Source: Epilithonimonas mollis
GTDB lineage: Bacteria; Bacteroidota; Bacteroidia; Flavobacteriales; Weeksellaceae
NCBI RefSeq assembly: GCF_900142325.1
Contig: NZ_FRAM01000001.1
Coordinates: 186,001 to 250,000 of the forward strand
Length of the DNA: 64,000 nucleotides
Direction of reading: 5' to 3'
Shown: positions 7,805-54,075 of the stretch, piece after piece
Layout of the letters: every line of letters begins with the position of its first letter
Numbering within the stretch: the first letter of the stretch is position 1
Position numbers and translations under genes: made by a program
The notes under the pieces: model-generated
Seen by the model: only the letters and a program-made list of their open reading frames with translations
Databases searched by the model: none
Told to the model about the DNA's origin: nothing

Positions 7805-7827
7805 TTAAGTGTTAAATTTACACTTAA
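7805..7827. promoter_or_regulatory. Candidate AraR-like operator before tal
   Basis: AAGTGT-N7-ACACTT at 7807-7825 is the most symmetric copy of the window's shared motif AARTGT-N7-ACAYTT, extended to TTAAGTGT/ACACTTAA. On the minus strand, a possible promoter with TTG at 7843-7841, 20 nt, then TAAATTTA at 7820-7813 would place the -7 box inside the palindrome. Bound protein would then block transcription. Confidence 0.65.
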
Positions 7828-7890
7828 TTGATTAAAAAAACAACTTGCTGTCTTAAAAAAGATTCAGAAAGTTGTTGATTGAATTTTTAT

Positions 7891-9921
7891 TTAATTGTGA
7901 TGACCCATCGGAAGTTTGATTTTCTTCAAATCTTCCAACTTGTGAACAGGTTTTTCGATGTTATCAGGAATTGGCCTGTTGGAATAGGTCTGGAAATACA
8001 GCAGACAAGCATCTTTCCACCAAACGGCATCTTCAGCCTGAATTTTTAATTTATCCTTAACCTCCGAAAATCTTTGTTCATCGATATAAGGCAGCATTTT
8101 GTTCCATAATTTCTGATAATCTCTCACTTCGTGAACACCCAAATCGTATTTGTAACACAATTCTTCCCACATTGTTTTTCCGTCCTTCATTCTGTAATCC
8201 CAAGGAACGTGATGAAACCAAAGAATCAGATTTTCCGGGGTCGTTTTGATATTTCCATAAATCTCATTCAGAGGGGGAAAATATTGCGAAACAGCATCGC
8301 TTCCGGTTTTGCTTCTGTCAAAACCTAAACCTTGCGCATCTGCTCTGTGATAATAAACTGGCGACCAATCGGCTCGAGTTCCTTTGTAATCACCCCAAGG
8401 TTCAGGTCCGTAGTGATGTCCGCCTGCAAAAATATGATGCAAACCCAATGGCATCATATAATCCACAGCCGTTTCTCGGGAAGTGAGCATCATTTCTTTT
8501 ACAGGAGTAACAAATTTATCATCATTCGTAAAAGTCATTTTAATCCATTCATCGGCAATCTGTTCCGAAGTCAAATCGTTATTCCAGGCTAATCTTCCAA
8601 ATGCAAACCAGTTGGATTGTGCAAAATGATGACCTGTCCAGTTCGTATCTTCACCGATGTTTGCTACCGCAGAAATGGCTGTAAATTTTGCCGATCTCAA
8701 TGTACCATCTGTAATCTTTGCAATTGTAGAACCTTTTCCGTCTGAATAGGTATCGCTATCAAGATTTTCTTTAAAAAGCGGTGCTAAATAAACCAAATGG
8801 TTAGAATGTCCCAAATATTCTTGGGTAATCTGAAATTCAACCATCTGAGGCGTTTTTTTCATCGCCCCAAACAATGGGTGAAATGGCTCGCGAGGCTGAA
8901 AATCTACCGGACCGTTTTTAATCTGAATAATCACATTATCTCTGAATTTCCCATCCAAAGGCATAAATTCCAGATAAGCTTGCTTGGCACGGTCATCTGA
9001 ACTCGGACTATAAACGAATGCTCTCCACATCACGATTCCACCATAAGGTTTCAGAACATCGGCCATCATATTGGCACCGTCGGCGTGCGTTCTTCCATAA
9101 TCCTGCGGTCCCGGTTCTCCTTCGGAATTGGCTTTCACCAAAAACCCTCCAAAATCGGGAATTAATTTATAAATTTCTGAAGCTTTGTCTTTCCACCATT
9201 TCTGAACGTCTTTATTTAACGGGTCAGAATCTTTCGTATTTCCCAATACTTTCGGCGATGAAAAATTGACAGCAAGGTAAACTTTGATGCCATAAGGTCT
9301 GAAAATATCTGCGAGAACTTTTACTTTTTTCAAATAGTCTTCACGAAGCATATTTGGCGAAGCGTTGACATTATTCAGAACTGTCGCATTGATTCCGACT
9401 GAGGCGTTAGCTCTCGCATATTCTTCACATCTAGGTGAAATTTTATTGGGTAAGTCTTCCCATTTCCAAAGCGAATGACCGGCATAACCGCGTTCAATGG
9501 TGCCGTCCAGATTATCCCAATGATTCAGAATTCTGATATCGTAAGACGGTTTTTCTTCTATATTCAGATTAGAAAAACTGCCTTTCTGCTGTTGCAGATT
9601 CAAGAGATGGTAACTTCCGTACAACAATCCTAAATCTGTTTTAGCCAAAACCGTAATCTTTTTCGGGGTTGAAATGATTTTATAACCATCCTTGAAACTA
9701 TCCGGAAACTTATCAATTTTCAAATCGATTGGTTGCCCGCTCCAATGATTGTTCAGTTCTTTTTTGGCGATTTCCAGCGTCGGACTTTTGCTGTTGGAAT
9801 TTACAATGTTTCTTGGCTTTGAATTGACCGGATATCGCAGCCATAACTGACTTCCGTCTTCGGCAAAAGCTATGAATGGAAGGATTAAAAAAAGTAATAT
9901 ATAATGTCGGAAATTTTTCAT
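7891..9921 (-). CDS. aguA: GH67 alpha-glucuronidase, exported
   Basis: A 676-residue enzyme that removes (4-O-methyl)glucuronic acid from the non-reducing-end xylose of xylo-oligosaccharides. A signal peptide (about 1-20, ending IAFA) points to the periplasm. The proposed catalytic acid is E267 in KANSEGEPGP, the conserved GH67 site. FQITQEYLG and WGDYKGTRADWSPVYYHRAD are also family hallmarks. Length fits GH67. It is the last gene of the xylan block and follows the cytoplasmic-type GH43 by 140 bp. The released glucuronate would enter the uxaC-kdgK-eda pathway at the right end of the window. No C-terminal type IX sorting domain is seen. Confidence 0.95.
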   Translation of the reverse strand: MKNFRHYILLFLILPFIAFAEDGSQLWLRYPVNSKPRNIVNSNSKSPTLEIAKKELNNHWSGQPIDLKIDKFPDSFKDGYKIISTPKKITVLAKTDLGLLYGSYHLLNLQQQKGSFSNLNIEEKPSYDIRILNHWDNLDGTIERGYAGHSLWKWEDLPNKISPRCEEYARANASVGINATVLNNVNASPNMLREDYLKKVKVLADIFRPYGIKVYLAVNFSSPKVLGNTKDSDPLNKDVQKWWKDKASEIYKLIPDFGGFLVKANSEGEPGPQDYGRTHADGANMMADVLKPYGGIVMWRAFVYSPSSDDRAKQAYLEFMPLDGKFRDNVIIQIKNGPVDFQPREPFHPLFGAMKKTPQMVEFQITQEYLGHSNHLVYLAPLFKENLDSDTYSDGKGSTIAKITDGTLRSAKFTAISAVANIGEDTNWTGHHFAQSNWFAFGRLAWNNDLTSEQIADEWIKMTFTNDDKFVTPVKEMMLTSRETAVDYMMPLGLHHIFAGGHHYGPEPWGDYKGTRADWSPVYYHRADAQGLGFDRSKTGSDAVSQYFPPLNEIYGNIKTTPENLILWFHHVPWDYRMKDGKTMWEELCYKYDLGVHEVRDYQKLWNKMLPYIDEQRFSEVKDKLKIQAEDAVWWKDACLLYFQTYSNRPIPDNIEKPVHKLEDLKKIKLPMGHHN

Positions 9922-10007
9922 TCTTAAATTTTTAAATTATTTAAGTTTTGGCTAAAGCCAAATTGTATATCGTCTTCTAAAAACAGGCTAAAGCCCCTTC
10001 CAATGAT

Positions 10008-10026
10008 AATAGGATTTTATCCTATT
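10008..10026. repeat. Short perfect inverted repeat
   Basis: AATAGGAT-TTT-ATCCTATT forms an 8-bp stem between GH67 and the GH43 gene. A GGCTAAAGCC hairpin lies nearby (about 9950-9960), and AGGCTAAAGCCCC follows at 9985. There is no U-tract on the minus strand, so termination is unproven. Confidence 0.45.
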
Positions 10027-52070: not shown

Positions 52071-52122
52071 TGGTATATGATTTTGAATTAGAAAACTGAC
52101 AGTCTTTTTGATTTAAATTTCT

Positions 52123-54048
52123 TTACTTAAAAATTAGTTGTGCAAACTGGTACAAATTATTTCTCCAAACCGGCCAGGTATGTCCGCCAGGATATTCGGA
52201 ATAAGTATATTTGACGCCTAATTCATCCAATTTTTTCATCATAATCTGATTATTTTGGTATGCTATATCATTTTTCCCGCCCATCGCAATCCAGAAATTT
52301 TTAATGTTTGAATTGAATTTAGATTTGTTATCCGCTAAAAATTTGTACTCGTCATCCGCCACTTTCTGAAGCGCAGGCAACATCCAACCCGAACTGAAAA
52401 CGCCAAGAGAAGAGAACATTTCAGAATTCTGAATTCCCGTGTAAAGCGTATAAATTCCGCCCATAGAAAGACCTGCCATCGCACGGTTCGGGGCATCTTT
52501 TTTAATTCTGAAGTTCGATTCTGCAAATGGAATGACTGATTCTTTTATTTCTTTTTCCAACATCTGAAGATTTCTGATTCCAAAATTTCCAAAACCAGCA
52601 GGACCGATATTTGCGTCCGGCATAATTAAAATCATTGATTTTGCTTTCCCTTCTGCAATCAGATTATCAAGAATTAAATTGGCTTTCCCCTGAGTTGCCC
52701 AACCGCTTTCGTCCTCGCCACCACCATGCAGAATGTAGAGAGCAGGATAATTTTCATTCAAATTTTTGTCGTAACCAGGCGGCGTATAGATGAAAATTCT
52801 TCTCCATGAATTGGTCACTTTTGAAAAGAAATTCTGGATTCTGATGTCACCATGAGGAACATCTTTCATTGCATAATAACCATCACCTGCAAACGGAACT
52901 TCGATTCCGCTAGCGTATCTTCCCATTCCGTAAAATGATTTGCTTGATGGGTCCGCAACGGCAACATTATCAATCAATAACGAATAATAATGAAAACCTT
53001 CGCTCAAAGAATCTGTGATCGCCTTCCATGAACCGTCTGATTCCTTTTTAAGGTCATATTTCTTTCCTAAATCAATCTGAACTTTTTGTGCTTCCGGTGC
53101 TTTCACTTTGAATATCGCTTTTCCATTGCGAAGAATCTGCGGAAACTGAGCATTTCTGATATTGGATTCAGCGGGTGTTCCAAAAACGGTAAATTCTGAA
53201 AAATTAGATTGGTCAACAGGCTTGAAAATCAACTGAGAAAAGATGTACAAATCATTTTTCCAGACTTTGAAATCGTGTCCGCCCGGTTCTATGTAAAAGA
53301 TATGAGGAATTTTATTGGCCGTCAAATAATCGCTGGTTCTTTTGCTGAACGGCATCAAACCGTCCTGGTCGCCACACGAAATGAAAAGCAATTTCAATTC
53401 TTTCGCTTTTTGTGGATTTGGAAGTAATTGTTGCGGTTCTTTCGTATTCGGAGCAGATGAAAAAGCACCCACCCAAGCGAATTTGTTGATATTTCCCAGA
53501 CCGAAATTCAGGGTTTGTCCGCCTCCCATTGAGAGTCCTGCAATAGCGCGGTTTTCTCTGTCTTTTTTAACCGGATATTTTTTTTCTACCGCTGGAATCA
53601 AGTCGTTCAGCAAATCTTTTTCGAAGGTTGCAAAAGCGTCAACTTTATCTTTTGCCATAATATTTCCGGTAGCGCGGTCGTCTTTCATTGCTCTTCCGTT
53701 GGGCAAAACAACAATCATCGGCGTGAGTTTTCCTTGTGCGTATAGATTGTCTAAAATGATTTGAGGCGTTCCGTTTTTGTACCATTCTTTTTCGTCGCCA
53801 CCAATGCCGTGAAGCAGGTATAAAACCGGATATTTATTTCCCTTTTTATATCCCGGCGGTGTGTAAATCAAGGCTTTTCTTGTGGTTCCGACCGTTTTTG
53901 ATACATATTGAATGGAATCAATTTTTCCGCGTGGAATATCTTTTTTCTCAACGTCAAAACCTTCTGGTGCCTGTCTGTCAGTATTTTGAGCGGAAACAAA
54001 TAGTCCCGAAACCAAAAAAGCTAAAGTAAATATCTGTAATTTTATCAT
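52123..54048 (-). CDS. Double-headed esterase: two esterase-D/CE1-like domains around an E-set linker
   Basis: A 641-residue protein with signal peptide (about 1-20, FVSAQ) and two complete alpha/beta-hydrolase domains. Domain 1 (about 45-275) has S173 in AGLSMGGG, an Asp at 227-229 (GDQDG) and H258 in GGHDF. Domain 2 (about 400-641) has S528 in AGLSMGGI, D594 in GKNDI and H623 in GGHTW. Between them (about 285-390) is an E-set/CBM48-like module with the [13 protein letters not shown] sequence usual before such esterases. Both triads look intact. Feruloyl or acetyl esterase activities are likely; two catalytic centres could remove two acyl types. It is first in the ten-gene run. Confidence 0.9.
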
Positions 54049-54056
54049 ATATTTTT

Positions 54057-54075
54057 ATTTGTAATTTTTACACTT
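54057..54075. promoter_or_regulatory. Weak AraR-like operator before the ten-gene run
   Basis: ATTTGT-N7-ACACTT: the right half-site is perfect and the spacer is 7 bp, but the left half deviates from AARTGT. It is only 9 bp upstream of the esterase start codon, so binding would block transcription or initiation. No convincing -7 box was found nearby. Confidence 0.35.

Follow-up and report, generated by a model that had tools for sequence, protein, structure and literature searches.

A predicted AraR regulon for arabinose use, marked by a shared palindrome, in Epilithonimonas mollis

A stretch of 64,000 nucleotides of the Epilithonimonas mollis genome (contig NZ_FRAM01000001.1, positions 186,001 to 250,000; referred to here as the window, with positions counted from its first letter) carries the palindrome AARTGT-N7-ACAYTT before genes for arabinose release and catabolism and before a transaldolase gene (tal). 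These palindromes are very probably (about 90%) operators of the AraR regulator encoded at position 18756, as judged from sequence comparison. An earlier reading of the sequence alone (the sequence-only reading) had proposed a single regulon linking arabinose release, arabinose catabolism and pentose-phosphate genes, and comparative evidence speaks for it: a published operator fits the pattern, the copies follow the presence of AraR from genome to genome, and the sites precede orthologous genes. The system thus appears to be a well supported AraR regulon of a known kind and, within the literature searched, newly described for this lineage.

Palindromes in the window and the genome

The window contains five exact copies of AARTGT-N7-ACAYTT, beginning at 7807, 18221, 18677, 27975 and 32840, where 0.04 would be expected, and none of 100 dinucleotide shuffles of the window reached five exact copies. 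The four strong sites named by the sequence-only reading, before tal, araR, araB and GH3-GH51, are real, although the araR-side site lies at 18677-18695 rather than at 18678-18696. It had noticed no comparable copies in the other gaps, and had overlooked an exact copy before GH127 (18221-18239); the six best matches of the matrix described below are otherwise the sites that it listed. The whole genome (3.7 Mb) contains eight exact places, and four for a reversed control pattern. Six of the eight belong to the arabinose locus, namely the five in the window and one at C4:262130, about 12 kb beyond it. The remaining two, at C4:1622188 and C5:907914, approximate the count typical of AraR-lacking genomes (mean 1.8) and were treated as background because of their gene context and the number expected, and not because of their score. 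The C5 copy lies inside an open reading frame. The C4 copy (L006:9988-10006, equivalent to C4:1622188-1622206) is an exact palindrome 5 nt before a gene that looks like hemD and is seemingly unrelated to sugar use; it may be an unforeseen target or a chance copy.

Scoring by one or two mismatches is without power: the two-mismatch pattern is not enriched in the window (27 seen, 22.5 expected), and neither are genome-wide copies with at most one mismatch (79, against 96 for the control pattern). The weaker copy at 54057-54075 has two mismatches to AARTGT-N7-ACAYTT and is not significant by pattern; because two-mismatch copies are not enriched, the case for it lies in its matrix rank and its conservation. 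The matrix was built from 27 distinct sites of other genomes, taken from araR, araB and GH3 promoters, with the E. mollis genome left out. The six window sites score 27.5, 26.8, 26.1, 23.9, 16.3 and 14.9, are all intergenic and head the window, and three of them (tal, GH127 and esterase) belong to promoter sets outside the matrix training. Above a cut-off of 14 there are six matches in the window, against a mean of 0.025 and a maximum of one in 200 runs of simulated intergenic sequence. The weaker copy claimed by the sequence-only reading can be retained, as it ranks sixth and is kept in 15/15 orthologs of AraR genomes. The next-best match, at 30109 (score 12.6), a weak one before GH51, was rejected for want of conservation at the 14 other GH3-GH51 junctions.

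Conservation across genomes

The comparison covered 120 genomes of the family Weeksellaceae, 17 with AraR (at least 74% identity) and 103 without. The mean number of exact palindromes per genome is 7.06 in the AraR genomes and 1.77 in the others, whereas the reversed control pattern shows no difference (2.82 and 2.49, respectively). In three genera (g1, g10 and g20), the exact copy number separates AraR from AraR-lacking genomes completely; the p value of a rank test on copy number is not strict, because the genomes are related. AraR is found in 86/320 genomes of the whole family, in 3/33 genera, and araB accompanies it in 17/17 AraR genomes but in 0/11 of the AraR-lacking genomes tested.

The sites are kept at orthologous promoters. 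Exact copies are found before araR in 16/17 orthologs, on the GH127 side of 16/17 araR loci (in 14/17, an ATG follows after 3-4 nt), before araB in 16/18 copies and before GH3 in 12/15 orthologs. The esterase variant retains 10/12 matches in 15/15 orthologs, which come from 15/17 AraR genomes, with AAGTGT in 15/15 and ACAAAT in 14/15. At the level of the class, 14/27 araR loci have a site of 11-12 matches within 1.5 kb; these loci contain 20 sites in 97.6 kb, against one for the control, and the genes of the eight closest proteins all have a site. One genome of the same genus (G119; contigs C3, C22 and C35) carries AraR and araB in duplicate and has 14 exact palindromes; its araB copy on C3 is without a site, and the match to tal on C35 is broken into two pieces that overlap.

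For tal, the araR-linked gene has an exact site in 7/7 AraR-bearing genomes of the same genus, and genome G072 has an exact palindrome 19 nt before its linked tal. AraR-lacking G095, with a 95% identical tal, has no site before this gene (best 8/12). No exact site was found at the other tal loci, among the 30/40 tal places scanned, the nearest being 11/12 in G116 and in AraR-lacking G082. The proposed pentose-phosphate link thus stands for the AraR-bearing congeners and not for the linked tal loci of genus g10 (see below); on these comparisons it is real but lineage-limited.

The regulator encoded at 18756

AraR of Bacteroides thetaiotaomicron (BtAraR, BT0354) binds such operators as a dimer and is released by L-arabinose, according to gel-shift data and crystal structures (PMC4666351). 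Its gel-shift site before BT0365, AAGTGT-AAAAAAG-ACACTT (PMC4666351), fits AARTGT-N7-ACAYTT letter for letter. The 18756 protein matches the BtAraR structures (5bs6, 5dd4, 5ddg and 5deq; E 2.2e-68 for 5bs6), and in a phylogenetic tree it shares a clade with BtAraR (support 99/97) and does not group with the XylR sequences, which form a clade of their own (100/100). The NUDIX, NrtR_WHD and AraR_C domains are all above their Pfam cut-offs in this protein, as they are in XylR. The Nudix signature is impaired, V63, T66 and L67 standing for three signature glutamates. The residues that contact arabinose or form the hydrophobic pocket (R34, F36, F49, R86, F129 and H131) are kept in 9/9 Weeksellaceae sequences, with V92 replaced by I. 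Base-contacting K179, R180 and N181 are likewise kept in 9/9, and residue 204 is K in seven and R in two. Further Nudix/winged-helix paralogs (34-44% identity) are present in many genomes of the family (L027-L039 and more), and five paralogs of the main remaining clade of the tree share K179, R180, N181, R183 and K184.

Genes and sites of the locus

The features are listed in Table 1. Names tested against NCBIfam are araB, araD, araA, the galM-type mutarotase, the sodium-solute symporter, TalC-type tal and xylA; the xylB-like kinase is below its family cut-off. Pfam supports GH127, the GH51-type and GH3 enzymes, GH115, GH67, the esterase and the two transketolase halves, and the remaining names are presumptive, assigned by reading the proteins. 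Behind tal, separate genes encode the N- and C-terminal parts of transketolase (window 4713-7211, read up to 5669 and from 6270 on, with about 600 bases in between).

Table 1. Candidate AraR operators, promoter boxes and genes of the arabinose locus (window positions unless stated otherwise).
Feature	Position	Strand	Remarks
Exact palindrome before tal	7807..7825	-	35 nt before ATG; tal is the first gene before two transketolase halves
tal, TalC/fructose-6-phosphate aldolase-type transaldolase	7118..7771	-	TIGR00875 above cut-off
Exact palindrome before GH127	18221..18239	-	4 nt before likely ATG (18216)
GH127 beta-L-arabinofuranosidase	15841..18216	-	PF07944, E 1.2e-125
Exact palindrome, putative araR autoregulation site	18677..18695	+	60 nt before araR
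TAACTTTG, candidate -7 promoter box of araR	18734..18741	+	TAnnTTTG 26-27 or 36-38 nt after the site in 17/17 loci
araR, Nudix and winged-helix regulator, BtAraR (BT0354) ortholog	18756..19442	+	Homology, domains, tree
Exact palindrome before araB	27975..27993	-	173 nt before araB
TATATTTG, candidate -7 box of araB	27951..27958	-	16 nt after site
araB, araD, araA, mutarotase-like (galM-type), sodium-solute symporter	20524..27801	-	NCBIfam matches
Exact palindrome before GH3 (then GH51)	32840..32858	-	97 nt before GH3
TATATTTG, candidate -7 box of GH3	32816..32823	-	16 nt after site
GH3 and GH51-type alpha-L-arabinofuranosidase genes	28030..32742	-	Pfam
Weaker copy AAGTGT-N7-ACAAAT	54057..54075	-	8 nt upstream of the esterase gene, the first of a ten-gene run
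Exact palindrome before xylR (outside the window)	L005:12130-12148 = C4:262130-262148		285 nt upstream of xylR
XylR gene, second Nudix/winged-helix gene (outside the window)	L005:11119-11844		Followed by xylB-like gene and xylA

Promoter geometry and proposed mechanism

Promoters of Bacteroidetes have a -7 box of the consensus TAnnTTTG and a -33 element. The -7 box begins 15-16 nt after the site in 16/16 site-bearing araB loci and 16 nt after it in 12/12 site-bearing GH3 loci, a fixed geometry in 28/28 loci taken together. The site would therefore lie over the place of the -33 element, a position that fits a block of RNA polymerase. At araR, the box follows the site by 26-27 or 36-38 nt in 17/17 loci, the two classes being about one helical turn apart. 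No TAnnTTTG box was found near the site in the tal, GH127 and esterase loci scanned; the GH127, esterase and tal sites, which precede the start codon by 4, 8 and 35 nt, respectively, fit occlusion or a roadblock.

In the mechanism proposed here, an AraR homodimer of Nudix/winged-helix subunits would bind AARTGT-N7-ACAYTT and, without L-arabinose, repress araR, GH127, araBDA with the transporter, GH3-GH51, tal with transketolase, and the esterase-led glycosidase run; outside the window, it would probably also hold down the xylR-xylB-xylA operon. L-arabinose entering the Nudix pocket would move the winged helices, freeing the DNA and inducing the units in concert. We infer binding, repression, the effector and the polymerase block for the 18756 protein, binding and the arabinose effect by analogy with BtAraR.

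The site upstream of xylR

The second Nudix/winged-helix gene, called XylR on the basis of its neighbourhood and clade, encodes a protein 34% identical to AraR. The AARTGT palindrome before it is exact in 12/17 AraR genomes and in 1/22 XylR genomes without AraR; with at least 11/12 matches counted, the figures are 16/17 and 2/22. A distinct palindrome, NGATAA-N2-TTATCA, lies near -146 of xylR (11844) in 18/20 loci, three of these without AraR, and is likely, from its position and conservation, to be the operator of XylR itself. Among 12 AraR-lacking loci that keep this palindrome, the AraR palindrome is found in one (G683, an 88% complete assembly); compared with these 12 loci, its occurrence in AraR genomes gives Fisher values of 0.0018 (exact) and 4e-6 (at least 11 matches), not corrected for relatedness. 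Because the copy follows the presence of AraR, AraR rather than XylR is the likely reader of this site.

Exact sites lie 250-313 nt from xylR and 216-278 nt before its -7 box, a distance at which action by looping or through an unseen promoter is possible. In three AraR genomes (G043, G098 and G112), the copy, at 192 nt, departs from the pattern by one mismatch and may be a different site. The divergent gene was rejected as the target, because the exact sites keep their distance to xylR and the neighbour is not kept, being absent from the same place in other loci. The comparison of neighbours used 39 loci less L064, L212 and L221, all three of which were included in the counts of the palindrome.

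Alternative explanations

That the copies are chance occurrences in AT-rich gaps, or sites of an unrelated regulator, is hardly credible. The lack of enrichment at one or two mismatches would agree with such an origin, but both the exact copies and the intergenic matches at matrix score 14 far exceed expectation, the copies follow AraR where the reversed control does not, and the sites are kept at orthologous promoters; a chance origin of the copies is refuted. A joint pentose signal, with the palindrome bound by XylR or common to both paralogs, is very improbable. XylR and AraR belong to one fold family, and 285 nt upstream of the xylR gene stands an exact copy, but XylR loci have a palindrome of their own and the copy before xylR tracks AraR. 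A shared XylR operator was rejected, given that the exact copy occurs in 1/22 XylR genomes without AraR, and in 1/12 AraR-lacking loci with the XylR palindrome. It is also unlikely, although less so, that AraR acts as an activator, or in a dual manner, instead of as a plain repressor at these sites. Neither the araR sites, in two classes a helical turn apart, nor the distant exact xylR sites would directly block a promoter; against this, BtAraR is a repressor freed by L-arabinose (PMC4666351), and the sites at araB, GH3, GH127 and the esterase are placed over the promoter region or downstream of it.

Several observations weigh against the reading of the palindromes as AraR operators with a common mode of action. 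The copy at C4:1622188 has a matrix score of 20.6, higher than two of the six window sites. The site is absent before GH3 in 3/15 orthologs, AraR-bearing genome G078 has none before araB or GH127, both g10 genomes with a linked tal have none before it (best 9/12), and conservation of the 54057 site was assessed within AraR-bearing genomes. The tree comes with a warning that long branches meet. R86, F129, H131 and mostly R34 are also kept in XylR sequences, so pocket residues alone are no proof of an arabinose ligand. Nor would a promoter block be uniform across the units: at araR, 26-38 nt separate the site from the -7 box, and no TAnnTTTG is near the sites of tal, GH127 and the esterase. Finally, PMC4666351 describes six base-contacting residues (K179, R180, N181, K184, K204 and R205) as absolutely conserved, and two of them are changed in 9/9 sequences (K184 to S or N, and R205 to K). 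On clade and operator, the 18756 protein is nevertheless an AraR ortholog, and the changed residues are a feature of this variant. The DNA-reading helix also shows R183 to I or T. Position 3 of the half-site is A in 5/12 and T in 1/12 halves of the six window sites, and the changed DNA-contact residues and the looser half-site AARTGT may belong together.

Relationship to known systems

The closest known system is the AraR regulon of Bacteroides and Prevotella (BT0354, NrtR family), which, as described in PMC4666351, shares the orthologous regulator, palindrome, spacer and arabinose pocket residues, and in which the ara operon, araR and genes for arabinosidases are likewise controlled. In E. 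mollis, by contrast, the ara genes are distributed over separate units, araR is divergent from GH127, and the predicted targets include tal, GH127, the esterase-led run and the site before xylR; the word 'transaldolase' is absent from the text of PMC4666351. Residues 184 and 205 differ from BtAraR, and A in 5/12 half-sites compares with G at position 3 in 6/6 halves of the three Bacteroides operators quoted in that paper. XylR of Bacteroidetes (BT0791, NrtR family), as presented in PMC3878776 and PMC4666351, is likewise a paralogous Nudix/winged-helix regulator beside xylose genes, but the XylR sequences form a separate clade, in a tree built without BT0791 itself, and have another palindrome at their own promoter. 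The Shewanella NrtR (3GZ5 and 3GZ6) has the same architecture, but the 18756 protein matches it with 77.8 bits, against 233.4 for BtAraR, and its ligand is given as ADP-ribose and its targets as NAD genes (PMC4666351). The Vibrio XylR treated in PMC12125979 belongs to another family. Within the open-licence literature (subscription papers and RegPrecise being outside this scope), nothing was found on AraR regulation in Chryseobacterium, Epilithonimonas or Flavobacterium, or on AraR-XylR cross-regulation in Bacteroidetes. What appears to be new, within the literature searched, is the lineage, the two changed DNA-contact residues and a target set that takes in transaldolase and GH127 and, probably, the xylose operon.

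Implications

It can be suggested tentatively, at somewhat less than even odds, that AraR in Epilithonimonas and Chryseobacterium has grown from an arabinose repressor into a master switch for arabinoxylan use. One arabinose signal would open side-chain release, arabinose catabolism, the tal/transketolase exit and, via a distant operator some 250 bp upstream of the xylR promoter, also the xylose operon, which has its own XylR, and the changed helix (R183 to I or T, K184 to S) would go with the looser half-site AARTGT. With the predicted regulon, an AraR system solved at the structural level in Bacteroides of the gut would be extended to Flavobacteriia of the environment, where a set of operators is at hand. 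The probable link between an arabinose regulator and the xylose operon bears on how bacteria coordinate use of the two sugars of arabinoxylan, and the DNA-contact residues and the half-site, changed jointly, may serve as a natural experiment on how specificity changes in the NrtR family.

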